Below are positions 8,025 to 56,305 of a stretch of 64,000 nt of DNA, piece by piece. This DNA is from Owenia fusiformis. Taxonomy: Eukaryota > Annelida > Polychaeta > Sabellida > Oweniidae. Made by a program: the position numbers and the translations under genes. The notes beneath the pieces are model-generated. The model ran no database searches and was not told the DNA's origin. It saw only the letters and a list, made by a program, of their open reading frames with translations. The stretch is from positions 35,674,867 through 35,738,866 of the forward strand of contig CAIIXF020000008.1 in the NCBI GenBank assembly GCA_903813345.2. The letters are read 5' to 3'. Positions within the stretch are counted from its first letter, which is position 1, and every line of letters starts with the position of its first letter.

Positions 8025-9670
8025 CTGAAATACAGGAATGGAATACTCATTATATGAGGTCCGAAATAAAACCCATGTGTCATCCAACTCAGAAATATAG
8101 AATTTGTGCTATGCAACACTCATTATATGAAGTCAGAAATAAAGCACATGTGTCATCCAACTCAGAAATATCGAATTTGTGCTATGAAACACTCATTATA
8201 TGAAGTCAGAAATAAAACACACGTGTCATCCAACTCAGAAATATAGAATTTGTGCTATGTAACACTCATTATATGAAGTCAGAAATAAAACACACGTGTC
8301 ATCCAACTCAGAAATATAGAATTTGTGCTATGTAACACTCATTATATGAAGTCAGAAATAAAGCACATGTGTCATCCAACTCAGAAATATAGAATTTGTG
8401 CTATGCAACACTCATTATATGAAGTCAGAAATAAAACACACGTGTCATCCAACTCAGAAATATAGAATTTGTGCTATGTAACACTCATTATATGAAGTCA
8501 GAAATAAAGCACATGTGTCATCCAACTCAGAAATATAGAATTTGTGCTATGTAACACTCATTATATGAAGTCAGAAATAAAACACATGTGTCATCCAACT
8601 CAGAAATATAGAATTTGTGCTATGTAACACTCATTATATATGTCAGAAATAAAGCACATCTGTCATCCAACTCAGAAATATAGAATTTGTGCTATGTAAC
8701 ACTCATTATATATGTCAGAAATAAAACACACATGTCATCCAACTCAGAAATATAGAATTTGTGCTATGTAACACCCATTATATGAAGTCAGAAATAAAAC
8801 ACACGTGTCATCCAACTCAGAAATATAGAATTTGTGCTATGTAACACCCATTATATGAAGTCAGAAATAAAACACACGTGTCATCCAACTCAGAAATATA
8901 GAATTTGTGCTATGTAACACTCATTATATGAAGTCAGAAATAAAGCACACGTGTCATCCAACTCAGAAATATAGAATTTGTGCTATGAAACACTCATTAT
9001 ATGAAGTCAGAAATAAAACACACATGTCATCCAACTCAGAAATATAGAATTTGTGCTATGCAACACTCATTATATGAAGTCAGAAATAAAACACATGTGT
9101 CATCCAACTCAGAAATATAGAATTTGTGCTATGTAACACCCATTATATGAAGTCAGAAATAAAACACACGTGTCATCCAACTCAGAAATATAGAATTTGT
9201 GCTATGTAACACTCATTATATGAAGTCAGAAATAAAGCACACGTGTCATCCAACTCAGAAATATAGAATTTGTGCTATGAAACACTCATTATATGAAGTC
9301 AGAAATAAAGCACATGTGTCATTCAACTCAGAAATATAGAATTTATGCTATGTAACACTCATTATATGATGTCAGAAATAAAACACATGTGCCATCCAAC
9401 TCAGAAATATAGAATTTGTGCTATATAACACTCATTATATGAAGTCAGAAATAAAACACATGTGTCATCCAACTCAGAAATATGGAATTTGTGCTATATA
9501 ACACTCATTATATGAAGTCAGAAATAAAACACATGTGTCATCCAACTCAGAAATATGGAATTTGTGCTATGTAACACTCATTATATGAAGTCAGAAATAA
9601 AGCACATGTGTCATCCAACTCAGGAATATAGAATTTGTGCTATGTAACACTCATTATATGAAGTCAGAAA
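8025..9670. repeat. 73-bp minisatellite abutting cyclin K acceptor
   Basis: About 22 tandem units, period 73 (for example acactcatt at 8116 and 8189). Each contains tcatccaactcag, gaaatatagaat and either CACGTG or CATGTG. The array begins at the exon-4 acceptor: plus-strand ctgaaatacaggaat (8025-8039, which includes the acceptor) lines up with ctcagaaatatagaat in every unit. The real acceptor may therefore be the diverged terminal unit. Confidence 0.9.
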
Positions 9671-11050
9671 AAATTAGTACCATGGGTACTGGGCTCACAT
9701 GGTGACAGAAAAAACGGATATAATTTTTTGCTGATTTTTTGTAACAAAATTATTTCAAGCCACTTGCCACTATTTTGGACTGACGGAGAGACAGATGGAC
9801 AAATCGATGTTAAGTAAAATTGCTGAAAAAAAACAGATATAATTTTTTTTCAATTATTTGGAACAAAATTATTTCATACAACTACTCTTTACAGTGACAT
9901 GGCTTTTTGCAATGCAAGACACCTGAAATTATTTGTAAAGCTAGGAAATGGGCCAAAATTGAATTTCGCAAGGCAAAAATGACGACCATTTTGAAATCAG
10001 GCAAGCTTTTGAACCAGGAGTCAAAGGGGAGTTTTTTTGTATTGATGTTGAACAAAAATAACGTGAAACTGGAATCTTATCGACAGAGGTTTTAAGTAAA
10101 TGGTCCAAAAGAGGATTTCGTGAGACAGATGGACAAATCAATGTTAACTAAAATGGCTGAAAATAAAAAAACAGATATAATATTTTGCCGATTTTTTGTA
10201 ACAAAATTATTTCATACAACTACTCTTTACAATGACATGGCTTTTTACAATGCAGGACAGCTGAAATTATTTGTAAAGCTAGGAAATGGGCAAAAAGTGA
10301 ATTTCGCGAAACAAGAATGGCGACCATTTTGAAAATAGGCGAGCTTTTGAACCAAGAGTCATAGGAGAGTTTTTTGTATTGATGTTGAACAAAATTAACT
10401 TAAAACGAGAATCCTATCGACAGAGGGTTTAAGGTAAATGGTCCAAAAGTGGATTTTGCGAGACAGATGGACAAATCAATGTTAACTAAAATGGCTGAAA
10501 ATAAAAAAAATGGATATAATTTTTCGCTGATTTTTTGTAACAATATTATAACATATATCTACCCTTTACATTGACATGGATTTTTACAGTGTAGGACACC
10601 TGAAATTATTTGTAAAGCTAGGAAATGGGTCAAAAGTGAATTTCACGAGACAAAAGTGACGGCCATTTTAAAAATAGGCGAGCTTTTGAACCAGGAATCA
10701 TAGGGGAGTTGTCTGTATTGATTTTGAACAGAAATAACTTAAAACAGGAATCCTATCGACAGAGGTTTTAAAGGAAATGGGTCAAAAGTGAATTTCGCGA
10801 GACAAAAGTGACGGCCATTTTGAAAATAGGCGAGCTTTTGAACCAGGAGTCATAGGGGAGTTTTCAGTATTGATCTTGAACAGAAATAACTTAAAACAGG
10901 AATCCTATCGACAGAGGTTTTAAAACGTGCCACTATTGTTGAAGGACGGACGGACAGACAGACAGACAGACGGACAGACAGACAGACGGACGGACGGACG
11001 GACAGACAGACGGACAAGTGAGTGATTGCAAAAGCTCACCATGTGAGCTA
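9671..11050. mobile_element. Non-autonomous element interrupting the 73-bp array
   Basis: The array breaks at gtcagaaa and resumes at taaaacacacgtg. The insert has inverted ends (gctcacatggtga near 9690, tcaccatgtgagct near 11038), about four internal units of roughly 330 bp (each with aaaatggctgaaaat, attatttgtaaagctagg and cctatcgacagagg) and a gacggacagaca microsatellite at about 10945-11013. The layout matches a compound non-autonomous repeat with a variable internal array. The small open frames inside look like repeat sequence rather than genes. Confidence 0.7.
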
Positions 11051-11425
11051 ATAAAACACACGTGTCATCCAACTCAGAAATATAGAATTTGTGCTATGTA
11101 ACACTCATTATATGAAGTCAGAAATAAAACACATGTGTCATCCAACTCAGAAATATAGAATTTGTGCTATGCAACACTCATTATATGAAGTCAGAAATAA
11201 AGCACATGTGTCATCCAACTCAGAAATATAGAATTTGTGCTATGCAACACTCATTATATGAAGTCAGAAATAAAGCACATGTGTCATCCAACTCAGGAAT
11301 ATAGAATTTGTGCTATATAACACTCATTATATGAAGTCAGAAATAAAACACATGTGTCATCCAACTCAGGAATATAGAGTTTGTGCTATGTAACACTCAT
11401 TATATGAAGTCAGAAATAAAGCACA
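11051..11425. repeat. 73-bp minisatellite, distal part
   Basis: About five further units of the array at 8025-9670, split off by the inserted element. Confidence 0.9.
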
Positions 11426-13390: not shown

Positions 13391-14825
13391 AGGGTGCTGG
13401 TCTTCATCATGTGTGTAACATTCATAATGATGATAAGCTACACTACTTATCCAACAGATAAGCCTACAATTTCTTGGACAATAAAACCACAAGCACCACC
13501 ACTAAAAGCGACAAGTGTTCCAGTGAAAGCAGTAGAAGATCCAGAGAACAAATTATATAATGCTAACAATAATTTACAAAATAATGTCGTAGAAATTATT
13601 GCACAACATATTAAGGAAAAGATGAAGAACAAAGATAATATAATAAAAGCTACAACAATGAAAGCAGTAGAAGATCCAGAGAATAAATTATATGATGCTT
13701 CAAATAAACTACAAAATAATGTCATGGAAATAAGCACACCACCTTTAAAGATGCAGAACAAAGCTGATAAACTCAAAGCTAGAACAGTGAAGGCAGTAGA
13801 AGATCAAAAGAGTAAATTGTATAATGCTACAAATAAACTACAAAATAATGTCATGGAAATAAGCACACCACCTACAAAGATGAAGAACAAAGCTGATAAA
13901 CGCAAAGCTAAAATAGTGAAGGCAGTACAAGATCAAAAGAATAAATTATATGAAGCTTCAAATAAACTACAAAATAATGTCATGGAAATTAACGCACCAC
14001 ATATAAAGATAAAAATGAAGAACAGAAATGGAAATGATAAACTAAAAGTTACAACAGTAAAAGCAATGGAAGGACCAAAGAATGAAATATATAATGCTAC
14101 AAATAAACTACAAAAAATTGCCATGAAAATGAAGAAAAAAACAAATGGTAAAATAAAAAATAATTCTGCCCATAACATGACAGGAAGCCAGCTATTAAAT
14201 ATTACAAAGGAAGCAATCTCAGATCACAATCCAAATGAAACTGTTAATATTAAGAACAAAAATGAAGAAATCAAAATTCTCATATGGACTACATATTATT
14301 CAAAAATATTAGACTTTGGAGAAGACGCTTCCAATTGTTCAGTAAAGCTCTGTAGTTTCCACTATGATAAATCTAAAATAGGGATAGAATCAAGTGACGC
14401 AGTCTTATTTCATTTATGGGGCAGTGACTTAAGGACTGATGACACCATACCCCAGATTCGATTCTCATGGCAGAACTACATATTTTTCTCAATGGAAAAT
14501 CCAAAGAGGGATTACTTCACAAAAGAACTGAATTTGACCCAGTTAGACAGTTTCTTCAACCTCACTATAACATACAAAACAGACTCTGATGTACCTCTGT
14601 GGTATGGCAGATACATTCCAAGAAGCTCAAAACGAACCAGTATGAGGAATTACTATAAGGAGAATAGACTTAATGAAACAGATAATAAAGATGCAACAAT
14701 TCTATGGATTGCGAGTCATTGTAATACAGTGAATGATCGTTTGCGGTTTGTAAAGGAGTTACAGAAATATATAGCCATCGATATATTTGGAAAATGTGGA
14801 AAGCCTTGCAAACGTGGCACAAAAT
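13391..14825 (+). CDS. Alpha-1,3-fucosyltransferase variant A, exon 2 (anchor, stem, N-terminal GT10 domain)
   Basis: An open exon of 1435 nt from acceptor atgttccag to donor GTAAGT, ending in phase 1. In order: membrane anchor RVLVFIMCVTFIMMISY, a long stem with five repeats of 43-47 residues, then the GT10 N-terminal domain: EIKILIWTTYY, SSDAVLFHLWG, SWQNYIFFSMENP, LDSFFNLTITY, SDVPLWYGRY, ATILWIASHCNTVNDR, VKELQKYIAIDIFGKCGKPC. GT10 enzymes transfer fucose from GDP-fucose to GlcNAc on glycans in the Golgi; this half binds mainly the acceptor. No C-terminal exon lies nearby; splicing to 34814 (phase match, TGT split codon) would give about 630 residues. The ATG at 13382 lies before the AG and is probably intronic. 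Confidence 0.88.
13520..14146 (+). repeat. Five-unit coding repeat in the stem of variant A
   Basis: Units start near 13526, 13661, 13790, 13919 and 14060. Each carries KAVEDxxxKLYNA, NKLQNNVMEI and a basic linker such as KADKxKA. Variant C has one related unit (VYNATYELQRNLNGI) and variant B none, so stem length was set by in-frame tandem duplication. All five units remain open. Confidence 0.85.
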
Positions 14826-20282: not shown

Positions 20283-20350
20283 TCCCATTTGCATTTACTT
20301 TCAAGATAGAACTCAACCACATGTTTACCCTGGTCCTGTATATAACCGTT
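20283..20350 (+). repeat. Solitary diverged unit of the fucosyltransferase splice-acceptor repeat
   Basis: Reads tactttcaagatagaactc then catgtttaccctggtcctg, clearly one unit of the arrays at 23.3-24.1 and 31.8-34.8 kb. It lies downstream of variant A, so A may once have had its own array or 3' exon. Confidence 0.7.
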
Positions 20351-31816: not shown

Positions 31817-32778
31817 GATCATACACACAGGGTGTTTACCCTGGGCCTGTACATAACTGTAAATACTTTCAGGTAAAGCTCATCCATATATATTTACCCT
31901 GGTTCTGTACAAAACTGTCTATACTTTCGAGTAGAGCTCATCCATGTGTGTTTACCCTGGTCATGTACATAACTGTCTATACTTTCAGGTAGAGCTCTTC
32001 CATATATGTTTACCCTGGTCATGTACATAACTGTCTATACTTTCAGGTAGAGCTCATCCATATATGTTTATCCTGGTCCTGTACACAACTATCTATACTT
32101 TCAGGTAGAGCTCATCCATATATGTTTATCCTGGTCCTGTTCACAACTATCTATACTTTCAGGTAGAGCTCATCCATATGTTTACCCTGGCCCTGTACAC
32201 AACTATCTATACTTTCAGGTAGAGCTCATCCATATATGTTTATCCTGGTCCTGTACACAACTGTCTATACTTTGAGGTAGAGCTCATCCATATATGTTTA
32301 CCCTGGCCCTGTACACAACTGTCTATACTTTCAGGTAGAGCTCATCCATATATGTTTATCCTGGTCCTGTCACAACTATCTATACTTTCAGGTAGAGCTC
32401 ATCCATATGTTTACCCTGGCCCTGTACACAACTATCTATACTTTCAGGTAGAGCTCATCCATATATGTTTATCCTGGTCCTGTACACAACTGCCTATACT
32501 TTCAGGTAGAGCTCATCCATATATGTTTACCCTGGCCCTATATACAACTGTCTATACTTTCAGGTAGAGCTCATCCATATATGTTTATCCTGGTCCTGTA
32601 CACAACTATCTATACTTTCAGGTAGAGCTCATCCATATATGTTTACCCTGGCCCTGTACACAACTGTCTATACTTTCAGGTAGAGCTCATCCATATATGT
32701 TTATCCTGTTCCTGTACAGTATATACTTTTTAAAATAGACTAAAAGTATCTAAAAGTTTTAGGTACAGCTCATCCATA
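31817..32778 (+). repeat. Splice-acceptor minisatellite, array 2 (about 16 units)
   Basis: Same unit as array 1, with tatactttcag, gtagagctcatcca and tatatgttta(t/c)cctgg. Some units are shortened by a few bases. In the frame set by the donors, a unit would read C-RAHPYMFTLALYT, against C-GTHSYMFYMALEN in the real exon. Confidence 0.92.
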
Positions 32779-33053
32779 TACAGGGTGTCCCGAAAGTATT
32801 GGGCCCCCCCCCCCTAGGCATACATATTCCAGTGTCCTCATAGTATGTGTCATATATCATTTTAAAGCTTATCCAAAGTTACATTGATATGCCAAGTATC
32901 ATGGTTTAACTCCCAAATGGGAAAAATTTACAGGCATTTCAAAATTTAGTGTTTGGTCAAAATTAAGTTCAATTTTACACCAAAACACTAGTCAATGTGT
33001 CCTCCTGGAATATGTCTGCCTAGGGGGGGGACATACTTTTGGGACACCCTGTA
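32779..33053. mobile_element. MITE, second copy of the 7212 family, inside the array
   Basis: Ends tacagggtgtcccgaaag and cttttgggacaccctgta, flanked by TA, cutting an array unit within ccatata/tatttaccc. Shorter internally than the copy at 7212. Confidence 0.85.
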
Positions 33054-33467
33054 TATTTACCCTGGTCCTGTACATAACTGTATATACTTTCAGGTAGAGC
33101 TCTTCCATATATGTTTACCCTGGTCCTGTACATAAGTGTTTATGCTTTCGGGTAGAGCTCTTCCATATATGTTTACCCTGGTCATGTACAAAACTGTTAA
33201 TACTTTCGGGTAGAGCTCTTCCATATATGTTTACCCTGGTCCTGTACATAACTGTATATACTTTCGGGTAGAGCTCTTCCATATATGTTTACCCTGGTCC
33301 TGTACATAAGTGTATATGCTTTCGAGTAGAGCTCTTCCATATATGTTTACCCTGGTCATGTACATTACTGTATATACTTTCAGGTAGAGCTCTTCCATAT
33401 ATGTTTACCCTGGTCCTGTACATAACTGTATATACTTTCAGGTAGAGCTCATCCATATACAGGGTGG
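33054..33467 (+). repeat. Splice-acceptor minisatellite, array 3 (about 7 units)
   Basis: Continuation of array 2 after the MITE, with a sub-variant gtagagctcttcca. Ends where the mariner-like element inserted. Confidence 0.9.
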
Positions 33468-34587
33468 GCCAAAAAAAAACCAATACCCAACTTTAAATCA
33501 GACTGAAAATAGCTATGTTCAATATGATACATTGATTTATATATCATTTTAAAGGTAATCCATTTTCGAACAATTTGGTATATAACACTATGTCATGAAA
33601 TCAATATTAAAGTTTTATTATGCTTATTTGGGAGGCTTGGTCGGTATTTATGGTATCCAGATTTTAGGGAGAAAATAGTAAATCTGCGGAATAATGTTAA
33701 TTTTTTATTTATAGAATATCATTTTGTTAGGTGAATAAATGCTTGTATATTTGCATATTGTGTGACTAAACTTATTGTTTATGAATTTTAGTGTTGTTTA
33801 TTATCAATAAGTACTCAAAGGGGGTCTGTTAAAAGACATTAAACGTATATATGACGAGAATTTTATTTTCCAACAAGATGTAGCCCCGTACCATAGATCT
33901 CAGGAGACATTGGCATTCCTTTGCAAACAAGGTGTCAATTTGATTGATCTCGATGCTTGGCCACCCAACAGCCCCGATGCTACATGTTATGTGTTTGATT
34001 ACCATACATGGAGCCATCTCGAGGAAATGGTACAATCAAAAGCATCCAATAAACAGCTTTGATGAGCTGAAACAGAATCCTAAAGTGCTGAAATGAATTG
34101 CAACAGAAATTTCTCAATAAGGCTATTGATAGATTGCGCTACCACTTGAAGCTTATTGTTGATGCATAGGGGAGGGGGTGGGGGTATATTGAGCAACTGT
34201 GAAAATTGTTTAAATAAATAAAGTGTAAAATGTTATCAAATAACACTGAAATTCATAAACAATAAATTAAGTCACACAATGATGCAAATATCAATATCCA
34301 AGCATGTATTCACCTAACAAAAGAATGATATTCTATAGATAAAAGATTAACATAATTCTGCAGATTTACTATTTTCTCCCTAAATTCTGGAGACCTTAAA
34401 TAGCGACCCAACCTCCCAAATAAGTATAATAAAACGTTACTATTGATTTCATGATGCAGTGTTATATACCAAATTGTTTGAGATTGTATGACCTTTAAAA
34501 TGGTATGTAAGTCAATGTACCATATTGAATGTAACTATTTTTATCCTGATTCGAAGTTGGGTATTGTTTTTTTTGGCCCACCCTGTA
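33468..34587. mobile_element. Mariner-like element with about 340-bp terminal inverted repeats
   Basis: The ends are tacagggtgggccaaaaaaa and ttttttggcccaccctgta, bordered by TA. The inverted arms extend about 340 bp on each side (shared ctattttctccctaaa / tttagggagaaaatag and aaacaataaattaagtcaca-like blocks), unusually long for this group. The centre has a transposase fragment. Confidence 0.85.
33868..34064 (+). pseudogene. Tc1/mariner transposase C-terminal fragment
   Basis: Reads FQQDVAPYHRSQETLAFLC, then DLDAWPPNSPDA, then DYHTWSHLEE. QQDxAPxHR and WPPxSPD are the second and third catalytic-aspartate regions of DDE/D mariner transposases. The N-terminal DNA-binding part and first aspartate are absent, so it cannot act alone. 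Confidence 0.85.
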
Positions 34588-34813
34588 TGTTTACCCTGGT
34601 CCTGTACATAACTGTATATACTTTCGGGTAGAGCTCTTCCTTATATGTTTACCCTGGTCATGTATATAATTGTCTATATTTTTAGGCAAAGCTCATCCAT
34701 ATGTGTTTACCATTGTCCTGTACATATCTTTCTTTACTTTCTGGTAAAACTCAACTATATATGTTTCTGTATATAATTTACAGGGCTCTGTATATAATGA
34801 TCTATACTTTCAG
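34588..34813 (+). repeat. Last units of the minisatellite grading into the real acceptor
   Basis: Three diverged units (at about 34620, 34680, 34740) followed by tgatctatactttcag, the functional-looking acceptor of the constant exon. The real splice site is the terminal member of the array. Confidence 0.85.
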
Positions 34814-35247
34814 GTGGAACTCACTCGTATATGTTTTACATGGCCCTGGAAAATGCTGACTGCAAAGACTACATCACAGAAAAACTTTGGCATAATTCAT
34901 TTGGGGCAAACTTAATTCCTGTAGTACAAGGATCTAAAGTTGAATATAGCAAACATCTCCCACCAAATTCATTCATTCATGTAGATACCTTCAACTCCGT
35001 AAAAGACTTGGCTATGTACATCACTAAAGTATCACATAATGAAACGCTTTATAATTCTTATTTTAAATGGAAGGAACTTTATCAGTCAACATACAATGGA
35101 GGTTTACGAAATCCTGACAACTTTTGTAAACTATGCACAGTGCTACATGAACGAAGACAGAATACTTCCTTTAACAAGGAATACAAGATCAGCTCTTGGT
35201 TTGATTGGAAGAATCAATGTGCCAGAAGAGTAAAAGTTTTACATTGA
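34814..35247 (+). CDS. Fucosyltransferase constant exon (C-terminal GDP-fucose domain)
   Basis: Begins after tatactttcag in phase 1; its first GT completes a TGT cysteine with the T left by any of the three upstream exon 2s. It encodes GTHSYMFYMALENADCKDY, ITEKLWHNSFGANLIPVVQG, then SFIHVDTFNSVKDLAMYI, YFKWKELY and FCKLCTVLHE, ending TGA. FYxALENxxCxDYITEKLW is the hallmark GT10 C-terminal motif that contacts GDP-fucose. No second copy of this exon was found in the window, so A, B and C either share it or A and B are broken. 144 codons including the split one, then the stop. Confidence 0.93.
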
Positions 35248-37628: not shown

Positions 37629-37652
37629 ACAGGGGTATGAAAATATACTTAC

Positions 37653-37734
37653 ATATCTATGGAACTCCTTGAATGAGTGAAACATATAGAATCTGTGAAA
37701 GAACACAACCCCTGTGGCACATGTGTCATAGCGT
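37653..37734 (-). CDS. CCNK: Cyclin K exon 3
   Basis: Minus strand, acceptor ctcttgtcag to donor GTAAGT. It reads [18 protein letters not shown], then HSFKEFHRY. Family: [27 protein letters not shown]. 82 nt, phase 2 in and phase 0 out. The next exon is 29.6 kb away at 8024. Confidence 0.96.
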
Positions 37735-41751: not shown

Positions 41752-42069
41752 TGTAGAGCAGAATAATTTTCTGAAACCGGTAGCTTTACAGTGGGAGCTC
41801 TCTCCAGATTCAGTTATCTCAAAAAATGGTTTGGTCACCGTATGCTATGCTTATTTTGTAACAGCAAGCTAGACAAGACTCCAATGAACACTGGGCACTG
41901 TTTCGCTGAGCTAGATCTGTGCCTATGAATATATTATGAAATGAAACGTTATAATGATTTTCAATGGGATTTTTACTGCAATCTTGACCCAAATCAAAAA
42001 ATTATATGAAAAATTATCAAAATAAAAAATTCTGGAGAATAAATCAACGAAATCCGTCTAATAGAGCGT

Positions 42070-42749
42070 TAGGGGAAGTGGTCCTAATTATCGCACGGTC
42101 CTAATTATCGCACGATTGTCCTAAATAGCTAAAATATGCACCCACCATCTTTTAAACCAGTGTTACGAAAAACAGTTCAACACCATTACTCCCAATCTTA
42201 ATGATTTATTCATATATTTAGAAATATCTCTTCATTTTTTAAGAATTGTTAACTTCCGCCATTGTCATAAATGCTTTTGCGCAAGAAGTGAAATTCGTCT
42301 GACAAATTTTGACCCCCTATGTCTATGTCTATGTCAATAATCTGCAAAAGGCTAATAAGCCCATATAAAGCAGATATATAATTTAACCCCCTCCAAATAA
42401 AGACAGAAAAGTAAGTGTATAATGTATATTTTGTTGATATTTTACACTAAAACTGATAGAAAAATGATTACAGCATATGTATGTATCTGTTATAAACAGA
42501 GAAATGTATACAGTATCGTGAAATGACATCTGAAACATAACTGTGCGATAATTAGGACCACCGCACATGCGAGTCTAAGGGGTCTTAAAGTGTTAGCGTT
42601 CGGAGATTGAGAAATGTCAAACACTACTTAGATTTTAGAGGAAAGGTTGATCTTTCGTCTCATATTCTCAAAGTAAGTTGAAGTTATCATATTTGAAATC
42701 GTCAGTAGTTTCCCTGAGTACCCGTGCGATGATAGGACGACTTCCCCTA
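42070..42749. mobile_element. 680-bp TA-flanked MITE, taggggaagtggtcc family
   Basis: Ends taggggaagtggtcctaatt and aggacgacttccccta with internal copies of ctaattatcgcacg and gtgcgataattagga. No coding content. Confidence 0.8.
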
Positions 42750-42830
42750 TATTAATTTTTTAGGTGATTGTATTAAATTGTTAGATATTCACTCTGCTAA
42801 AACAATGAAAAATAACTTATTCCGACTTAC

Positions 42831-43000
42831 CTTCACGACAATAAGGAGAAACTTTGGTAAATTTTGAAAGTGAAGGTTCACGTTTCCTGATCCACCATGT
42901 TTATCTACACAAAAACCGATGACGTAGAGGAGAATTCAGTAACTAATTTTCACATATTAGTAATTTGAAATGTAGTTGAGCAAATAAAATAGTCTATCAA
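42831..43000 (-). other. CCNK: Probable cyclin K 5'UTR exon with a short upstream ORF
   Basis: A strong minus-strand donor (gtgaag/GTAAGT, junction at 42831/42830) closes a region that would be the first exon of cyclin K. It contains an ATG reading MVDQET then stop, so it is non-coding for cyclin K and would be a uORF. The right boundary (transcription start) is not determined; 43000 is a guess. Confidence 0.5.
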
Positions 43001-43220
43001 TATATAAAGTGATTTTTTAATATTAATTCAGATGTTATGCCAACACATGAATGAGTTTATTTTTGATTTTATGCTTATGAAAAATCTAAAATATTTGTAC
43101 AAAGCTCCCCATTTTCGCGCAATAAATTTACCGCGAAATTTTCCTGGCACCAAGTTTACTAAATACTTTCACGTTTCCTCCATTTATTGAACAACGTAGG
43201 CGAACTTTTGCAGAATCAAT
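43000..43220. promoter_or_regulatory. Candidate bidirectional promoter of CCNK and NAA40
   Basis: The two genes diverge from here with about 390 bp between the cyclin K first donor and the NAA40 ATG. The segment has ttttcgcgc and accgcgaaatt, like E2F-type sites, rare CpGs in an otherwise CpG-poor area, and a CRE-like gatgacgtag at about 42919. No TATA box obvious. It is flanked by, but free of, recognisable transposons. Confidence 0.5.
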
Positions 43221-43226
43221 ATGGGG
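43221..43226 (+). CDS. NAA40: NAA40 exon 1 (Met-Gly)
   Basis: ATGGGG followed directly by the donor GTGAGT. Vertebrate NAA40 also begins MGRKS; exon 2 here starts RKSAKGKE in phase 0, so the junction restores the family's N-terminus (a myristoylation-like MG start). Only six coding bases, but position, phase and promoter context agree. Confidence 0.75.
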
Positions 43227-43401
43227 GTGAGTTGGATATATTTTTTTATCTTGTAGGAAAAGGATCAGAAAGTCCAATGTAAGATTAGAACAAGATCTTG
43301 TAAGTAAATTCGAATGTCACTCAACCTACTATTTTTTTCATGGCCTGAGTTCGTCGCTAACATGCTAAATATAAGATTTAGCTGACGTTTGGGAGTCTGA
43401 C

Positions 43402-44232
43402 CATAGGCTAAGGGTTAAGTAATAGTAAGCTGTATATAGAAGAGACAGGTGAACAACTAGGATTTAGGCCACTTGTTAACATGGCGATTTTAACATTATT
43501 TGTGTACAATTTTCAAAAAACAATGCAGAGTTGATCCAAAATTGATAGTTCTCAATTCTTACCTATGAATCAACCACATTCAAGTGATATAGAGTGAATA
43601 AAGCCGTCTTGAGGCGAGATATTCTGAAAACCTACAATTGGCTGGCAAGTTACCCGGATTTCCGTGTTGAATCATGAATGGAAGTTTGAAACAAGGAATT
43701 TGATTGGTTCCTGCTAACCGCCGCCAGTGACACCTATCTGGTTCTCTAAAATGTAATTTATTTTCTAGAAATAACAATCAATTAAAGTGTACAAAACTAT
43801 AAAAGGTTTACTTAATAATTATTTATCAAAACATCTGATTCATATAATATCTTTTTAAACCCAATTTAAATGGTGAAATTAAAATTTTTCTTGGAATTTT
43901 AAACTTCTAATTACAACCAATCAAATCAATCGTTACAAGATTCAATCTTTCCATGTGTCCGGAAGTTTCAACTTGCCGGGCAATTGCAGGTTCGTACAGT
44001 TGGTGTTTTTTTATGCTGTCTTATCGAAGAGTTAGGATATAGATTTGAAATATTCAACAATCTACGTTTCGAAAACACTTTGGACAAGATTCTTGGGAGA
44101 TTTGGTGGTACGACTCGATACCAGTAAGGAGAACTCGTACCAAGACGGCAAGTTTTTGAAAAAATTTTCAATCCTAATTGTTTACCTGTCTCTTCTATAT
44201 ACAGCTTACTATTACTTAACCCTTAGCCTATG
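43402..44232. mobile_element. 831-bp element with 8-bp duplication (hAT-like)
   Basis: Perfect terminal repeat cataggctaagggttaag with its complement at the right end (at least 40 bp). Flanked by agtctgac at 43394-43401 and 44233-44240. An 8-bp target duplication suggests hAT or P type. No transposase. Confidence 0.88.
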
Positions 44233-44320
44233 AGTCTGACTTACCTTCTAAAGGTTAGAACCCGAATCTTAATGAAACCATATCACCTTTGTTGCGTTGA
44301 TGATGATGCATAAACACAGC

Positions 44321-44532
44321 TACAGGCCCGTAGCCAGGATTTGGCAAGGGGGTTCAGTTTTCAAAAATTTCCAGGGGGGGGTTCACATTTGACAATTTTG
44401 GCCCAAATATGGCTAAAATCACAAGAGAAGTGCTCAAAATGGTGAAAAACTGCATGATTTTGAAAGAATTTTTGGCCAGGGGGGGGGTTCGCCCGAACCC
44501 TGCGAACCCCCCCTGGCTACGGGCGGGCCTGT
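44321..44532. mobile_element. 212-bp insert, acaggcccgtagcc family
   Basis: Ends acaggcccgtagccagg and cctggctacgggcgggcctgt; short flanking cagc duplication. Interior ccaggggggggttcacattt and ttggcccaaa are shared with 18591-18764. Sits within the shell's otherwise continuous cataaacac...agcatttgatag. Confidence 0.8.
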
Positions 44533-45123
44533 CAGCATTTGATAGAAATTAGTGTAAATGCTTTTCCGACTTTTCATTTTTCATCAATGTTGACTTCCGG
44601 GAAGGCGTTGTAGTTATCACGAAATAACGCATTGACCCTTGAACTTTACTTTGTTGACGTGTCAACCAAGCATGTCTGGTGTGAAAATTAAAAGAATATT
44701 AAGCAATGTTCTACATCCCCTAAGCTAAGTGAAGTAGCCAATATTTAAAATTACCAATTTCAAGTGAAGTACGCAACGAACGAAACTGCGTGATCTACAC
44801 TCCCACTATTGGTCTGAACGAAATGCTACGTAGAAATACTAGCCGTTTGCTGTATTAGTCGATTAATGGAGTAAGACCTGTTGGTGATGCTTTATAATTT
44901 AGACCAAAACATTGGAGAACAAACGAACCTGTAAATCGTGAAAACAACGAACAAATATTCGGTTTTCACATATGTTCGGTAATTTTTCGTATTGAAACTT
45001 CCGGAACTTCCAAGGAAATCATTATTTTCACGGTCCATGATTTACCTCTTGGATGTTGTGGCAAATGCTCCATGGTTGACGGAACAAAGGTGATATGGTT
45101 TCATTAAGATTGGGTTCTAACCT

Positions 45124-46582: not shown

Positions 46583-46677
46583 GGTTCTAACCTTTAGAAG
46601 GTAAGTCAGACTCCCAAACGTCAGCTATTTCTTATATTTAGCATGTTAGCAACGAACTCAGGCCATGAAAAAAATAG

Positions 46678-48072: not shown

Positions 48073-48117
48073 CGAAAATCAGCAAAAGGTAAAGAAAAGG
48101 CAAAAGCAAGAAAAGAG
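48073..48117 (+). CDS. NAA40: NAA40 exon 2
   Basis: 45 nt between acceptor gtttttcag and donor GTAAAT, phase 0 in and out. RKSAKGKEKAKARKE, the basic N-terminal segment of NatD. Confidence 0.9.
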
Positions 48118-48390
48118 GTAAATCTACAGCAAATACACTGACTTTATTAATGTTAAAGATACACTTAATTGTCAAGAAAAATTTACATGAATTAGTCAAA
48201 TAGGTATTACATGTACATGTATTTTTAATATAAAGTATTATAGGATAAATCTTCACAGTTTAGATAATGAACTCTTTATAATGTTTCATCGAGTGACATT
48301 GCAAGTAGCCAGGCAACCAGGTGATAACATTGATTGATGCTTGATGCCTCAGTTCATGTGCATTGCTACATTCAAATTATTCTTTTGCAG

Positions 48391-48494
48391 GAAAATAAAC
48401 AGCTGAAGATCTCTATGGCAGAAGTTGATGAAGTTAATAAGATAGAGGATCCAATGGCACCACTTGCAGCCTTCAAAAAGTTTGAAAGAAATGG
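48391..48494 (+). CDS. NAA40: NAA40 exon 3
   Basis: 104 nt from acceptor ttcttttgcag to donor GTAAGC. ENKQLKISMAEVDEVNKI, then EDPMAPLAAFKKFERNG with split glycine (phase 2). Family: [32 protein letters not shown]. Half of this exon is duplicated about 100 bp downstream. Confidence 0.94.
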
Positions 48495-48546
48495 GTAAGC
48501 ATTAATATAGCAAGAATTATGAAGTACATGTACGTGGGGGTGTTAA

Positions 48547-48596
48547 GAGGATCCAATGGCACCATTAGCTGCCTTCAAAAAGTTTGAGAGAAATGG
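48547..48596 (+). pseudogene. Partial duplicate of NAA40 exon 3 with its donor
   Basis: 50 nt repeating the end of exon 3 (DPMAPLAAFKKFERN) followed by GTGAGC. The four base differences from exon 3 (CTT to TTA, GCA to GCT, GAA to GAG) are all synonymous. It has no good acceptor (preceding sequence cgtgggggtgttaagag lacks a pyrimidine tract). Use from aagag/GAT after exon 2 would stay in frame, so a rare alternative exon is possible. Confidence 0.7.
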
Positions 48597-48789
48597 GTGA
48601 GCTCCTATTGCAAAGTCTGTCTCTGATCTGTAAAGGACAGCCTTTAACCGTGTGATCTAAGTGACTTGATAATTGTAACGGCTGGAACTAAAATACTGAA
48701 TTCAGCAGCTTACTTTTCTAAGTGTTCCTAACATCAGTGGCCTTTGCTTGTGAAACTATGGAAAGTTTCAGCTTTTCAATTATCAGATC

Positions 48790-49893
48790 AGCCTGGCCTT
48801 TGAAATAGGTAAGGTAAGCACTTTGAAATAGGTAAGAAAAACAATTTGAAATAGATAATGTAAGCACCTTGAAATAGGTAAGATGAGCTCTTTGAAATAG
48901 GTGAGATAAGCAATTTGAAATAGGTAAGATAAGCACCTTGAAATAGATAAGGTAAGCATCTTGAAATAGGTAATATGAGCACTTTGAAATAGGTGAGATA
49001 AGCAATTTGAAATAGGTAAGATAAGCACCTTGAAATAGATAAGGTAAGCACTTTGAAATAAAAAAGATAAGTACTTTGAAATAGATGAGGTAAGCACTTT
49101 GAAATAGGAAATATAAGCACTTTGAAATAGGTAAGATAAGTGCTTTGAAATAGATCAGGCAAGCACTTTGAAATAGGTAAGATAAGCACCTGAAAAAGAT
49201 ATGGTAAACACTTTGAAATAGGTAAGATAAGCACTTTGAAATAGATCAGGCAAGCACTTTGAAATAGGTAAGATAAGCACTTTGAAAAAGATAAGGTAAA
49301 CACTTTGAAATAGGTAAGATAAGCACTTTGAAATAGATCAGGCAAGCACTTTGAAATAGGTAAGATAAGCACCTGAAAAAGATATGGTAAACACTTTGAA
49401 ATAGGAAAGATAAGCACTTTGAAAAAGATAAGTTAAGCACTTTGAAATAGGAAATATAAGCACTTTGAAATAGGTAAGATAAGTGCTTTGAAATAGATCA
49501 GGCAAGCACTTTGAAATAGGTAAGATAAGCACCTGAAAAGGATATGGTAAACACTTTGAAATAGGAAAGATAAGCACTTTGAAAAAGATAAGTTAAGCAC
49601 TTTGAAATATGAAAGATAAGCACTTTGAAATAGGTAAGATAAGCGCTTTGAAATAGATCAGGCAAGCACTTTGAAATATGTAAGCACCTGAAAAAGATAT
49701 GGTAAACACTTTGAAATAGGAAAGATAAGCACTTTGAAAAAGATAAGTTAAGCACTTTGAAATATGAAAGATAAGTACTTTGAAATAGATAAGGTAAGCA
49801 CTTTGATATATAAAAGATAAGCACTTTGAAATAGATAAGGTAAGCACTTTGATATATAAAAGATAAGCACTTTGAAATAGATAAGGTAAGCAC
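48790..49893 (+). repeat. 22-bp minisatellite with a 5' splice-site motif in each unit
   Basis: About 50 units of agcactttgaaataggtaag type with variants (gaaatagataaggtaag, gaaaaagatatggtaaac). Nearly every unit contains AG/GTAAG, the donor consensus. tttgaaataggtaag resembles the end of exon 3 plus its donor (tttgaaagaaatgggtaag) minus three bases. The long minus-strand open frames (LFQSAYLTYFKVL...) are artefacts of the repeat. Confidence 0.9.
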
Positions 49894-51144
49894 TTTTTGT
49901 CTTGTTCTGTCATGAAAGTGATAATGAATAAATTAAAATTTTCAGGTAAACAATTAATGAAAACGTATCAAATTAACATATACACGTGTGGCTAAAATAT
50001 AATATGCATATATATTTATTATTTACAGTATTTAAACTCCTTACATGTATATACAGAGTAAAAGTGTGAAATTAAGGCTCTAGAAATATGAGGAATCACA
50101 TACCATAGGAGCCCATTGACTGGTTCCATTTTTAGTGAATTTTTAGTTTTTTTAAGTTAAAAATCAAGATGGTGGTCACTAGAGCCAGCTCAATATCAAA
50201 TATATGTCAAGGAATCTACAAACATTTACAAACATTGTGACAGGACATTGACATTAAAATATAAATATACACATGGATAGGAATGTAAAAGCAGTGACTG
50301 AGTCTTTTCATCCATGATTAAAAAGATTTAAAAACCAAGGTATATCAAATGTTAACATATGACTTAAAGGAAGTATCTGATCTGTAGGGGGCATGATTAT
50401 AAGCAATGTTGCAAGCAATATGTACAATTGTCCTACCAATGTATTCATTACAATCTCAAATATGGTATCTCCCAAAATATCAGTGATTTGTTATCAATTG
50501 AAGTTGTATAAGATTCAAAGTGCAGAAAGATACTACCAAAATAATTAAAATGGTAACCATGTTTTAAACAAATGAATGCAGTGTTTTGAAAATCTTTATC
50601 TTTCCTCAAATAAAGAATACACTTTATGATATGAATCAAAAATGGACTAAAATTGAAACAATTTTCTTCAATTTTATGATGATGATTACTTGCATGATCT
50701 GATTCTGCGTTTTGGCCCTTTTATATTATTAAGAATGTTAAGCTTAACAATGATATAATAAAACAAATATTTAATTCTATTTTTGCTGAATATCTGCAAC
50801 ACTTTTACTCAATGATATTACACTAGCCCTTCAGATTTTGTGGAATATCAATTGTGAAAGATGCACAGGTTTTCACCTCAATAGAATGAAATATATGTTC
50901 AGTATTGAACCTAAGAATATACAGAAGTTAAGTAGATCTCTATCCTTTTATGAGTTTGTATGATGCTGCACTACTCTTTTCTAGATATTTCCTCAAGTGT
51001 AGGATCAAGGTTGGTCAAGGCAAAAATATGCCGACGTTTTTTTTTCATTTTTTTATGTTGGTGCAAACAGGTGCAAGCCAAAATCTCAATGCACCCACTT
51101 GTTTCAGCACTGGGATGTGAACAATAGTTTTATTTGTGTAATCT
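49894..51144. other. NAA40 intron 3 sequence without a gene
   Basis: AT-rich. 51003-51113 is a copy of the cacccacttg repeat family. A minus-strand AATAAA at 51134-51129 could serve the nested gene whose stop is at 51145. Confidence 0.5.
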
Positions 51145-52074
51145 CTAAATCTCAGTTGTTTTCTCATATGGTGTAATGCTACCACTCTCTGTTGTCTTTG
51201 GCCTGTCTTTGCAGAGTAGCAGTATAAGTGCTGATAGAATTAACCCAATAGCAATCGGTAATCCAATGAAAAATACCAAATAGACCCATACTCGAGGAAT
51301 ACAGGTCGTGACCACGTCAATCTTCTTCGCACTTGAGGGTACCTTGTACGATAGCAGGATGTTAAGGTTGGCTCTATAGGGAAAGTCTATAGTGCATGAA
51401 GATTGATCGGTAGTTGATAAGACACATTCTTTCTTGGTGGTTGATAAGTTGTAACGTGTTCTTCTTAGAAAGATTGTCATATTAATGTCTGCAAAGTTTA
51501 TCCCCCGTTGTTCGGATAGTCGTGATCGAGCGTAAATGAAGAAATAATCATCTGTAGTGGATATCTGAAAGTTTTCTTGGTAGGTACCATTTAAATACAT
51601 GGCGGTATAATCAGCACGTTTTTGGAGTTGATTACAATTATCCATGCAATGTCTAAATCTATTTTGCCACATTATACGACGAGATATTCCTTTTGCCATG
51701 TAGAATTCAACATGTGCATTGACTGTTGTCGTGATTGTGACTTCAGATCCAGCTATTAAGTGATAGCCCCAGTATTCAAATCTTCTATCATAAATGGTGC
51801 TCGCTGTTTGGACAGTTTGTTCCAATGTTTCATTTTTATCAATAGATGGCGCATCTGGTGTTGTGTACACATCAACCGTTTCACTTTCTTTGTTTGTTAT
51901 CTCAAGTCCTGTACACATAAAGCTGTTGAATCTATTTTGGATATGCCTCATATCCCCTGGCGAGGAGGATATCATTTCAGGGCCATATGCAGAATATCTA
52001 ATAGGAAGTCCTATCAACAGAGCAAGTAGGACAATCCAGACCCAAAGAACGAGGACTTTGTGCATCTTTGACAT
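51145..52074 (-). CDS. Intronless two-pass membrane protein, APD1-4 middle-domain-like
   Basis: 309 residues from MSKMHKVL; this ATG has a perfect Kozak context (ccacc-ATG) and directly precedes the first membrane segment, so I prefer it to the in-frame ATG at 52248. Segment 1: VLVLWVWIVLLALLIGLPI. Segment 2 near the C-terminus: VYLVFFIGLPIAIGLIL. Between them is a predicted lumenal or extracellular domain of about 235 residues with several N-glycosylation sequons, YWGYHLIAGSEVTITTT, VEFYMAKG, YFFIYARS, a Cys pair (KKECV...SCTIDFPY) and TTCIPRVWVY. Spacing and motifs recall the middle domain of APD1-4-type E3 ligases, but no RING finger follows. Function unknown. Nested antisense in NAA40 intron 3. 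Confidence 0.8.
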   Translation of the reverse strand: MSKMHKVLVLWVWIVLLALLIGLPIRYSAYGPEMISSSPGDMRHIQNRFNSFMCTGLEITNKESETVDVYTTPDAPSIDKNETLEQTVQTASTIYDRRFEYWGYHLIAGSEVTITTTVNAHVEFYMAKGISRRIMWQNRFRHCMDNCNQLQKRADYTAMYLNGTYQENFQISTTDDYFFIYARSRLSEQRGINFADINMTIFLRRTRYNLSTTKKECVLSTTDQSSCTIDFPYRANLNILLSYKVPSSAKKIDVVTTCIPRVWVYLVFFIGLPIAIGLILSALILLLCKDRPKTTESGSITPYEKTTEI

Positions 52075-52539
52075 GGTGGGATTTAAACACACTATGAATT
52101 TTAGAATAGGGCAAACGCGTCCCCAACATCTAGCACCGTCTCTCTTGTTACCACTGCAACTGCCACGACCACCACATTTTTTACTGGAATCGCCACCACA
52201 AGTAGCATTACCACTGAAACCGCCACGAAAAGCAGGATTTCCATGCATTGTAGCTTATAACTGCACTGTAATGAAAAATATTTGATAGATTAACAATTGA
52301 TTTCTAACAAATGAAACTGTATTTATTGTCGATCACTTGCTGGTTCCATAACATCAATAATACAAACATGGAGAAAGTATGAAGAAAATACTAAAACAAA
52401 AAATGGCTGACGAACTGTCTTGAATCCGCCAAATTAAATAGCCGCCAATATTTGAAATTGAACAAATCCGTCAAATAGGTAGCGTCAAATTAAGTGTATC
52501 TACAGATAAGTTCTTTGTCAATAAAACCTACAAAAGGAA
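52075..52539. other. Upstream region of the nested membrane-protein gene
   Basis: The open frame continues to 52248 with a glycine- and serine-rich stretch (GGDSSKKCGGRGSCSGN), probably 5'UTR; it consists of imperfect gtggc / ccaccac repeats. No TATA box seen. Confidence 0.4.
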
Positions 52540-53275
52540 TCAAAGCCCATAGTGTTTAGTAATATTATATATATATTATATTTAAATAGATGTGATTGTC
52601 AAGATAATTTTGAGAATTTAGAGTATTGTTATATAGAAAAAGTCAAAAAGAAACTACTGCTTACATATGAAACAACTTGGAATGATTTAGTACACAAGAA
52701 ACCAAAATTAAGAACATATGTCAAATTCAAAACATCATACAAAACTGAGTCATATTTATTGCTAAATTTATCTAAGTTGGAACGATCTTTAATTGCACAA
52801 TTACGTATGGGAATTTTACCACTGGAAATTGAAACAGGCAGATTTAGAAATGAAAAATTGGAAAATAGAAAATGTACTTTATGTAAATCTGGCAACATTG
52901 AGGATGAGGAACATTTTATTTTTAATTGTACATTTTATAAGGAAATAAGGGAAACATATTTACAAAATCACCAAATTTTTGAAGAAACAGAATCAACTAC
53001 GGATCAAAAGTTTCAGTATTTATTTGAAAAAATGCCTAGGCAAGCTGCTCATTTTGTTAAACTTTGTTATTTTAAAAGAAGAAATGCCATTTATAATGTA
53101 AATTGAATTTAACTGCATGTATGTGTCTAAGAAATTCATGCTAGTATTTTTAAAAATTTTTGTTATGAATCTAATAGTAATTTTTAACATTAGTGGTTGA
53201 TAAGCCCAAGTGGGCTGGGTTGCTTTTTATTACTTTTCTTTTGTATTGTATTGTATTGCATTGTATTGAACCTAC
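52540..53275 (+). mobile_element. 5'-truncated LINE, reverse-transcriptase C-terminal domain
   Basis: An open frame (to the stop at 53106) encodes YVKFKTSYKTESYLLLNL, LIAQLRMGILPLEIETGRF and the zinc-binding motif CTLCKSGNIEDEEHFIFNC. This post-RT region with CxxC...H...C is characteristic of non-LTR retrotransposons of invertebrates and fish. The polymerase domain is missing. A tail of repeated gtatt follows at 53243-53272. Insertion is on the plus strand. Confidence 0.85.
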
Positions 53276-53948
53276 CACTGTAAATAACAATAAAACTAAA
53301 CTAAACTATATCCCAAAAGAAAAATATATTCATATTGTACATGAATGACAATTATATATGTATATCATGGATTGCTAATGGTTTGATGCTTCTCCAAAAC
53401 TCTTAAGGTCAGGGTGCACTTTGTTTGATGAAATTTCATGACCATGTGCTATTTTCAGATAAACATTCTTTCCACACATCATCTACATCTTTCATTCTTG
53501 CACAAAAGATGCATTAGTGTACCTAGACTATTAATTTAGGGTTGATAATTCTTCAGAATGTTTGAATAACTAGAATATTCAGTGTTTGCTTTTCAAAATT
53601 GCAAAAGAATTCCAAAGTGCACCCTGACCTTAAATTACAAAATCGACAGGTTAGTGTTCATACAACTAATTTATCCGAACCATACAAATGTCTTTTGTGT
53701 TCAATATTACTTTACTATATTTCTCTCCATATAAGTATTTTTCCATGTATTGTACTGCAATCTTTTGATTCCTTATTCTGTTTTATTTGGTTTATTTATT
53801 ATAAGGTTAATTGACAAAAATCAAACATTGAAATGGACTAATCTTGGAACATTAAGTCACTTACCTAAATAAGTCTAAATATATAGTTGTAAATAATAGT
53901 GTTATCTTGTTCCCAAAGAATTGAAACTACTAATATTTTACAGCTCCT
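53276..53948. other. NAA40 intron 3, no gene seen
   Basis: Contains a fragment of the MITE at 46678 (near 53325-53370). A short palindromic pair sharing aaggtcagggtgcactttg (53404) and caaagtgcaccctgacctta (53612) marks a 220-bp MITE. Confidence 0.5.
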
Positions 53949-54382
53949 ATGTACAGGCAAGACAAGTCTATAAGCACCACTCCTATTGTGGTGTCCTTAT
54001 ACCTGTGTATAACAAATGCAGTAGATCGACATGTATATATATGGCACTATAAGCAGTTGATTCACAATCAAGGCAAGACAAGTCTATTGCTCCTATGGTG
54101 GTGCCCTTATATCTGTGTATTACAAATGCAGTAGACCTATATATATGGTACTATAAGCAGTTGATTCACAATCAAGGCAAGACAAGTCTATTGCTCCTAT
54201 GGTGGTGCCCTTATATCTGTGTATTACAAATGCAGTAGACCTATATATATGGTACTATAAGCAGTTGATTCACAATCAAGGCAAGACAAGTCTATTGCTC
54301 CTATGGTGGTGCCCTTATATCTGTGTATTACAAATGCAGTAGACCTATATATATGGTACTATGAGCAGTTGATTCACAATCA
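53949..54382 (+). repeat. 104-bp minisatellite, about four units
   Basis: Period 104 (ggcaagaca at 54072, 54176 and 54280), the last three units almost identical and the first diverged. Units contain ctcctatggtggtgccctta and aatgcagtagacc. Unlike the other arrays it does not touch an exon. Confidence 0.92.
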
Positions 54383-55769
54383 CATTTACCTGGCTCAATA
54401 CCAATATTGAGCCCTTGCAAATTTCTTACATTATATAAGAAATGGATAAAACATGGATTCTAGCGATACCATTCTCAATAATAACCAAACGAATGAATGG
54501 GTATGGTGGATTATTTTTAGATTTATATTGATAAAGGATTAGACTGGTATAACAAACACTGAAGGTTATGATTAACAGGACAGGGTCTACCCATATATTA
54601 ACCCATTCTTCTATTTATGTTAATATTTACCTGCAGTTGAACCTGTTTATATCAAACGCCACTGAGACTGACTCAATATTTATATAAAAACATTCTTTAA
54701 CATGGGGGTCAACAGAGAGAGAAGAATTTGTCAGAAAAATGTTTAGTTTCACACTTGGAGTATTTTGATTAAAGAGTTTTCATCAGCTTTATGCGGCTTT
54801 TGATTTTATTGAATTTCTTTTCTATGTCATAATGCTTGGTATTAAATTAATGGACTATGGATTAATAACAAGTTTTACATTTAAATATTTGGGTTCAAAG
54901 TTCATTTGTCATACTACAGGTTGACTCAATAATTCAAAACTCTAATTTTCGAATAATTCTTAATTTTGGTGGAATCTTTAATCATCTCATTGATGGAGTT
55001 GTCATAATTGTACATAAGTGCCTTTTCTTGTCGATTATTGTACATTATTTATAATTCTACACTTAAGTAGATCTGACCATAGTCACCATTCAAAATTAGA
55101 AAGTGGGTTACATTTTATGTCACCCTGTAGTATGCATACCTAATAATTTCACATCATTGAAACAAGTAGTTATTGCACATATCAAATGTTTCACCAATTT
55201 GCGTATCATTTTGTTTTGATGGAAATATTGGACACTTGGATTTTATAGTTTGGTTCCATGTGAAGTTTGAAAAATAATGTTGTAATGTTTGCATGATCAT
55301 CCAAAAAGTTGTAAAAATATTGTTTTTAATCATCCAATTTATTTTTCGTAATTTAAAAAAATGTTTGAGTCATTTTTTCTAATACTCAGGAGAGCCTTAT
55401 TATATGAACACTATAGGCCACATTAACTTTGAGGCAGGAGTTATACTATGGTCTCCTCACATATGAACAAATCTACTAAATGCGTCTTGCGAATTGAGTA
55501 AATCGTAAATTCATTCAATTGAAAATATTAACATTCGAATTGAACTGCTGCACATGCTTCCAAACCCTTTCGAAGCTTTCCAAAAAGATACTCCCACATA
55601 CGAACACCAAAATGATGTATAACATACATATTACGAATGGGAACAAACTCAAGTCCTATTCGTCAGTACACGCAAGTTGACGTTGGGGGTTTTCATTCAT
55701 ATGTGATTGGGCCTTTTTAAAGCGTTTTGTTACTTATTTAGGTATTGATAACTGACTGTCTTGTTTCAG
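54383..55769. other. NAA40 intron 3, distal part
   Basis: AT-rich, no gene. Short stretches near 54645 and 54916 (gttgaacctgttta, ctacaggttgactcaataat) look like relics of the TACAGTAAAACCTG family. Confidence 0.4.
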
Positions 55770-55865
55770 TTTGTCCATAACGCTAGAATGTAAGAAGAGA
55801 CCCACTTGTAAAGATGAAGATGTTGAATGGGCGTTCCAGTTGACAAAACAAAACATGAAGACATT
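55770..55865 (+). CDS. NAA40: NAA40 exon 4
   Basis: 96 nt from acceptor cttgtttcag to donor GTGAGT. (G)LSITLECKKRPTCKDED then VEWAFQLTKQNMKT and a split leucine. Family: LNVSIECKRVSG...VDWAFDLTKTNMQTM. Phase 2 in and out. Its 3' end and donor are amplified in the array that follows. Confidence 0.93.
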
Positions 55866-56305
55866 GTGAGTACACCTTGGGCTTTCATTGACAAAACAAA
55901 ACATGAAGACATTGTGAGTACACCTTGGGCTTTCATTGACAAAACAAAACATGAAGACATTGTGAGTACACCTTGGGCTTTCATTGACAAAACAAAACAT
56001 GAAGACATTGTGAGTACACCTTGGGCTTTCATTGACAAAACAAAACATGAAGACATTGTGAGTACACCTTGGGCTTTCATTGACAAAACAAAACATGAAG
56101 ACATTGTGAGTACATCTTGGGGTTTCATTGACAGTACACCTTGGGGTTTCATTGACAAGACAAAACATGAAGACATTGTGAGTACCCTTGGGGTTTCATT
56201 GACAAGACAAAACATGAAGACATTGTGAGTACACCTTGGGGTTTCATTGACAAGACAAAATATGAAGACATTGTGAGTACACCTTGGGGTTTCATTGACA
56301 ACAGG
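55866..56305 (+). repeat. 48-bp minisatellite copying the NAA40 exon-4 3' end and donor
   Basis: Starts at the donor of exon 4 with period 48 (gtgagt at 55866, 55914, 55962, 56010, 56058, 56106), about nine units, one shortened. Each unit contains ttgacaaaacaaaacatgaa / gacatt followed by gtgagtacaccttggg, that is, the last ~26 coding bases of exon 4 plus its 5' splice site. A 48-bp period keeps frame, so read-through gives repeats of DKTKHEDIVSTPWAFI. Confidence 0.95.

Follow-up and report, generated by a model that had tools for sequence, protein, structure and literature searches.

What brings tandem repeats to splice junctions, and do they arise there more readily than elsewhere? The question is raised by a 64,000-nucleotide stretch of the annelid Owenia fusiformis (assembly GCA_903813345.2, contig CAIIXF020000008.1, positions 35,674,867 to 35,738,866; hereafter the window), in which an earlier note had described tandem arrays seeded at exon boundaries of three unrelated genes, namely cyclin K, a fucosyltransferase (FUT) and NAA40. 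We confirm that two of these arrays hold a real junction: a 48-bp array at the exon-4 donor of NAA40 and a 58-bp array at the acceptor of the FUT 3' exon. The explanation we favour, with a probability of roughly 0.8, is ordinary intronic minisatellite expansion whose founder units happened to contain a live junction, with no special junction-seeking mechanism needed.

Arrays that hold a live splice junction

All five array families named in the earlier note are present, as called by Tandem Repeats Finder (TRF). For the junction test, each repeat unit was tiled and scored against every junction, with the alignment required to cross the junction; the site list comprised 35 splice junctions, annotated by hand from reading frame, homology and the GT-AG rule, plus the exon-3 duplicate described below. 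Three FUT first-exon donors were placed one base off here, as also in the scan for second copies and the position-only null below, and stood at their proper positions for the counts with 26 and 17 families. Scores were compared with 250 random sites and with 200 type-matched sites (donor-like or AG). The 48-bp unit scored 62 at the NAA40 exon-4 donor, against a maximum of 15 among the random and 14 among the donor-like sites, and the 58-bp unit scored 34 at the FUT acceptor, against a maximum of 12 in both the random and the matched background. The broader proposition that some arrays are expanded real splice junctions, of donor and acceptor type and in unrelated genes, is thus borne out.

The NAA40 unit consists of the final 26 bp of exon 4 and 22 bp of intron, with the real donor (55865/55866) in its first copy. 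GTGAGT is kept in all nine near-complete units; the three remaining pieces of the 12 were not counted, being two flank pieces and a unit at 56128 whose 24-bp deletion removes GTGAGT. Mean pairwise identity is 0.95 (10 units), and this near-uniformity marks the array as young. Its edge unit equals the consensus, so that no edge divergence is seen. The array terminates in TTGACAA, the same as the first 7 bp of the unit, as expected if the founder had been flanked by short direct repeats.

Two transposons interrupt the FUT array (31833-34848), which runs on into the real acceptor and its exon at 34814, with TRF blocks reaching 34766. Both transposons are terminal inverted repeat (TIR) elements lying inside the array, and the repeat resumes past each, which makes the three blocks one older array ending in the real acceptor; the array predates both insertions. 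The unit joins 23 bp of the intron 3' end (with CTATACTTTCAG) to 35 bp of exon, of which 26 are identical to the present exon in an ungapped comparison. Read in the frame of the gene, the exon part gives CRAHPYMF, where the present exon has CGTHSYMF and the paralogues P0122-P0124 on other contigs have CGTHPYMF or CGTQPYMF. On the thin evidence of one residue, the unit may have been captured before the exon changed. Units in the bulk of the FUT arrays have a mean identity of 0.92-0.94, compared with 0.71 in the four-unit block beside and including the real junction. The differing identities of the FUT bulk, the FUT edge and the NAA40 array indicate that ages differ and that the FUT edge escapes homogenisation.

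Two further arrays had been placed at junctions, and for these the earlier description was not confirmed. The edge of the 73-bp cyclin K array falls 14 bp from exon 7893-8024; as sequenced, its units therefore adjoin the junction and do not span it. Its score of 14 at the cyclin K acceptor is borderline, lying just above the 95th percentile of the random sites (13) but below the highest of them (20). The 23-bp array in NAA40 intron 3, 304 bp off the exon-3 donor, is donor-like only, scoring 12 at that donor with three other junctions scoring higher (21, 19 and 13). The statement that four of the five arrays include a real exon boundary is therefore upheld for the 48-bp and 58-bp families but not for these two, and units do not always span the junction. 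The placing of the 104-bp array away from junctions was right, the nearest annotated one being 1388 bp distant.

The earlier list also lacked one event, a two-copy duplication of the NAA40 exon-3 donor region in which 48444-48513 is copied at 48546-48613 (E 3e-9). It emerged among three positives (the NAA40 exon-4 donor, the FUT acceptor and the NAA40 exon-3 donor) when the 35 junctions were scanned for a nearby second copy at E < 1e-3. Applied to a 100-bp grid, the scan was positive at 123 of 638 positions, which reflects the many repeats in the window.

Could the cyclin K and 23-bp arrays also be junction-born, their homology having since decayed? The closeness of the cyclin K array edge to its exon invites that reading, as does the fact that only two of the 200 matched AG sites reach its score. 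For the 23-bp array, the point in favour is the exon-3 donor duplication in the stretch that separates it from exon 3. However, continuing the cyclin K array in register past its own edge gave p = 0.117, the unrelated FUT acceptor also scores 14 against the 73-bp unit, and the exon-3 donor fits the 23-bp unit no better than 15 of the 200 donor-like sites do. We regard a decayed junction origin of these two arrays as rather unlikely. Derivation of the cyclin K array from its own acceptor is unsupported, a decayed copy being what is left of that idea, and we reject the exon-3 donor as the source of the 23-bp array.

Fate of the copies and origin of the arrays

Among the NAA40 and FUT module 3 copies that were read, full-length protein is predicted from the edge copies only. 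All eight further NAA40 GTGAGT donors are predicted to truncate the protein, with a stop after 82 of the 240 residues read at an in-frame TGA at the donor. Likewise, for FUT module 3, splicing to any of the 16 exact-word ACTTTCAG acceptors upstream of the real one is predicted to truncate the product 19-77 residues past exon 2. Four decoys after FUT module 2, when read, have frames that soon stop, behind short tails encoded by the array. The deposited protein models agree with the NAA40 junctions and with the FUT 3' junction, and both (P0001 and P0121) read through the edge copy; we infer that the spliceosome would normally use it. A splice-site position weight matrix scored the NAA40 exon-4 donor at 5.7 against a threshold of 6.7 and the FUT acceptor, also weak, at 8.1; at the chosen thresholds it called no donor in the 48-bp array and no acceptor in the FUT array beside the exon. 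As the real sites scored weak, the decoy copies may be poor splice sites. The matrix was small and built from the window's own sites, with three FUT first-exon donors one base off, and array site counts derived from it were set aside.

Predicted truncation at every one of these NAA40 and FUT module 3 decoys, together with the retention of GTGAGT in the near-complete NAA40 units, is what one might see if the arrays were kept by selection as decoy or poison splice sites tuning host-gene output. Selection of this kind would predict conserved splice dinucleotides, but AG is kept in only 31 of 39 near-complete FUT units (39 of 46 pieces over both 58-bp arrays, seven incomplete pieces being left out) and lost in eight. 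Conservation is 82% at the acceptor A and 92% at its G, while the remaining columns average 92%; the two rank 50th and 32nd of 58. The NAA40 units are too young and uniform for their GTGAGT retention to inform on selection. The 23-bp array argues the same way: its 48 near-complete units, out of 49 pieces, hold 22 AGGTRAG words, and no column varies more than that of the initial G of the donor. Maintenance of the arrays as decoys, one of the mechanisms offered in the earlier note, is thus very unlikely.

The other two mechanisms offered fare no better. Templating by RNA, through a reverse-transcribed lariat or partly spliced transcript, would account for units that contain splice sites, and it would predict spliced joints. 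However, none of the four exon-exon joints searched for was found in the window, in a search not aimed at lariat (branch-point) joints. Each unit is an unbroken piece of genomic DNA running across exon and intron, and the joints between units link the intron to the exon of the same junction. We give an RNA-templated origin next to no credence. R-loop slippage should favour a single G-C skew, whereas the two confirmed families differ in sign on the sense strand of the gene, at +0.08 for the NAA40 array and at -0.25 (block a) and -0.28 for the FUT arrays, which argues against it.

We infer instead a mechanism of duplication at the DNA level, by replication slippage, end-joining or unequal exchange between short direct repeats. 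A first tandem duplication would have been placed so that its founder unit contained a live splice junction, copying a 48-bp segment that takes in the NAA40 exon-4 donor and, in FUT, one of about 58 bp that takes in the 3'-exon acceptor. Added copies would then build up on the intron side, where they would be nearly neutral, while the copy bordering the coding exon would be held fixed by selection on the protein. That the extra copies fall in the intron and leave the coding exon intact may be why junction-spanning founders survive.

Whether chance alone would place founders on junctions this often depends on the denominator. A randomly placed founder unit of the five families would hold a junction with a probability of 0.013-0.054. 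With 26 repeat families (the two-copy event and all TRF loci with a period of at least 10, but neither arrays of 4 bp nor TRF rows that overlap), 1.02 are expected to do so, and P(at least 2) is 0.27. Under a position-only null, the probability that at least three of six arrays lie no more than 50 bp from a junction is about 0.029. All of these chance figures are post hoc, for a set chosen after looking and in a single window. As P ranges from 0.0035 to 0.27 with the null, one window picked in this manner cannot establish a junction-seeking process, and the recurrence claimed in the earlier note was overstated.

Several points nonetheless weigh against the explanation we favour. For a window of 64 kb with 35 junctions, the two large arrays plus the two-copy event are more than two of the nulls would lead one to expect; P(at least 2 of 5 founder units with a junction) is 0.0096, and P(at least 3 of 17) is 0.0035 once nine of the 26 families, judged by eye to be coding or internal to transposable elements, are dropped. 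The terminal 7-bp repeat of the NAA40 array could equally be a truncated last copy. Moreover, the evidence base is the DNA of one haplotype of one species plus protein models, and the junction set was annotated by hand from homology and GT-AG rules.

The excess invites the alternative that minisatellites in Owenia, and perhaps elsewhere, for instance in lancelet, are born preferentially at splice junctions, owing to some feature of exon edges in replication, transcription or chromatin. Besides these two P values, it can draw on the independence of the events, their different ages and their occurrence at both junction types, and a like phenomenon is described in several lancelet genes (available portions of PMC3087553 and PMC3902484). 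On the other side, P(at least 3) is 0.075 with all 26 families, near tandem copies are found at three of the 35 junctions compared with the 123 of 638 grid positions, the window was chosen post hoc, and two of the four cases first proposed fail. A hotspot of this kind is therefore unlikely, and incidental capture of junctions by ordinary minisatellite expansion remains our preferred account.

Host genes and other repeats

The positions of the arrays, their host exons and the inserted elements are collected in Table 1. Over 239 residues, the NAA40 protein built from the window shows 100% identity to the deposited Owenia protein P0001, and the FUT protein is 97% identical to another, P0121. The minus-strand gene is cyclin K by its best solved-structure match (E 8.8e-113), which starts at residue 12 of the sequence compared, the first 11 residues being from a wrong frame. 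On the opposite strand, between cyclin K exons 7893-8024 and 37653-37734, lies a cluster of GT10 FUT modules (Pfam PF00852, PF17039), which would sit in a 29.6-kb cyclin K intron if no exon was missed.

Table 1. Features of the window (coordinates count from its first nucleotide; a dot marks a feature without assigned strand)
Feature	Position	Strand	Basis or remark
NAA40 gene	48073-60888	+	frame, protein match P0001
NAA40 exon 3, donor GG/GTAAGC	48391..48494	+	frame, protein
Second copy of exon-3 3' end and donor	48546..48613	+	E 3e-9
23-bp array, donor-like	48798-49896	+	304 bp from NAA40 exon-3 donor
104-bp array	53955..54382	.	nearest annotated junction 1388 bp
NAA40 exon 4, real donor ATT/GTGAGT at 55865/55866	55770..55865	+	frame and protein agree with P0001
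48-bp donor-spanning array, unit of 26 bp from the exon end, then GTGAGT and further intron; real junction in first copy	55840-56301	+	TRF, junction score
Lone 58-bp-type unit after FUT module 1	20296..20349	+	E 1.5e-8
Paralogous 58/59-bp array in intron after FUT module 2	23355-24118	+	511 bp from nearest annotated junction
58-bp acceptor-spanning array, block a	31833..32780	+	TRF
TIR element (CAGGGTGTCCC...GGGACACCCTG), inserted at TA within array; repeat resumes beyond	32781..33051	.	flanks
58-bp array, block b; 4/6 complete units with CAG changed to CGG or CGA	33052..33459	+	TRF
TIR element (CAGGGTGGGCC...GGCCCACCCTG), inserted at TA within array; repeat resumes beyond	33460..34585	.	flanks
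58-bp array, block c, degenerate units running into real acceptor	34586..34813	+	
FUT (GT10) 3' exon, acceptor ctatactttcag/GTGGAAC	34814..35247	+	acceptor in last array unit 34791-34848
Cyclin K exons found in window	76-251, 1952-2009, 7687-7792, 7893-8024, 37653-37734, 38678-38829	-	
73-bp array, first part, 14 bp upstream of cyclin K acceptor (exon base 8024)	8038..9673	-	
HINE/pearl-like insert splitting 73-bp array, with tandem repeats, a GACA microsatellite and, close to each end, a 13-bp inverted repeat	9674..11049	.	
73-bp array, second part	11050..11425	-	TRF

The FUT locus (12520-35247) has three 5' modules, with exon 2 open reading frames (ORFs) of 478, 264 and 284 codons, versus a single 3' catalytic exon at 34814; no second copy of this exon was found in the window. 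The ratio dN/dS between modules is 0.42-0.56, and the P0121 model combines module 2 and module 3 sequence. Modules 1 and 2 may either splice to the shared 3' exon past the decoy-acceptor field or be decaying. In module 1, the coding sequence holds an in-frame 129-bp repeat of about 4.6 copies (13521-14130), which probably lengthens the stalk region. The longer of the two TIR elements is, by eye, what we take to be the carrier of a mariner/Tc1-like transposase remnant.

NAA40 intron 3 hosts a single-exon membrane protein gene on the minus strand (51145-52254; Pfam APD1-4_N, 5.6e-8, and APD1-4_M, 1.4e-9). An ORF of 193 residues at 52525-53106 resembles by eye the C-terminal zinc-knuckle end of a non-LTR retrotransposon. 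The 23-bp array, also in intron 3, is purine-rich with a G-C skew of +0.36, and its AGGTRAG words would make it a dense field of putative U1-like sites. Several copies of a TTAGAAGGTAAGTCAGACTCCC motif, noticed by eye in both orientations at 40980-45120 and 46590-46660, are probably the ends of a large inverted-repeat transposon. The insert that splits the 73-bp array contains repeats of about 152/339 bp and a perfect 13-bp inverted repeat at 9693-9705 and 11036-11048. In architecture it resembles the oyster Cg_HINE elements as presented in the available text of PMC7492417.

Junction repeats in other animals

The earlier note knew of no named class of such repeats, yet one had already been described: the "mirages" of lancelet (PMC3087553; PMC3902484). 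This and the other published systems are compared here through the available portions of the reports cited. In lancelet, regular splicing is undisturbed by mirages, cluster length varies, at Adh3 even somatically, and the clusters may yield new introns (PMC3087553; PMC3902484). Judged by their sequence features, the 48-bp NAA40 and 58-bp FUT arrays would qualify as mirages. In both systems, a tandem unit spans the exon-intron boundary, at a donor or an acceptor, with the real junction as the edge unit, and AG or GT is present in many but not all units (here in 31/39 for FUT and 9/9 for NAA40, with one deleted unit lacking it). The unit lengths of the Adh3 mirages (10-72 bp) overlap ours. Lancelet globin mirages have homogenised interiors and diverged edges (PMC3087553), a pattern that is shared by the FUT array but not by the NAA40 array.

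Other systems resemble these arrays in part. The minisatellite of human IFI6 (6-16) provides multiple splice donors (Turri 1995, cited in PMC4526556) and, as in the NAA40 array, multiplies a real donor. Two downstream IFI6 units are said to act as donors and give isoforms, whereas the later NAA40 GTGAGT copies are predicted to run into an immediate in-frame TGA. In human genes of segmental duplications, internal tandem repeats lie at exon-intron boundaries (PMC2812944). Minisatellite expansion at boundaries is the common element, with gene structure altered in the human set; the human repeats were chosen for variable copy number and transcript support, while the present arrays are known from sequence alone. 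Among annelids, earthworm metallothionein carries minisatellites in its first intron, which the text consulted does not place on a splice junction (PMC12783039). No report of annelid mirages was found in the open-access literature among the matches listed, no search having paired annelids with the word "mirage". The class is thus already known, and the Owenia arrays are apparently its first annelid instance.

The model of Rogers, in which introns are gained by tandem duplication of AG/GT (described in PMC3087553; also PMC4974935), offers a further parallel. As in that model, units here carry exon and splice-site sequence, so that a decoy exon could arise, and junction arrays are a plausible intermediate in intron gain via tandem duplication. 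Unlike in the model, no new intron is seen, and the original intron has instead received extra copies of one edge. The arrays can also be regarded as natural experiments on how the spliceosome chooses among near-identical sites, with nine donors in NAA40 and 17 exact-word acceptors for FUT module 3. If exon edges were indeed hotspots of minisatellite birth, mirages would be widespread, datable, locus-born repeats that repeatedly seed decoy splice sites and rarely also new exons or introns. What sets the present cases apart from the lancelet mirages is their annelid host, together with the two transposons that interrupt one array and the paralogue which that array has. Finding two clear cases, besides a two-copy one, in a single annelid window suggests that mirages extend beyond the chordates.

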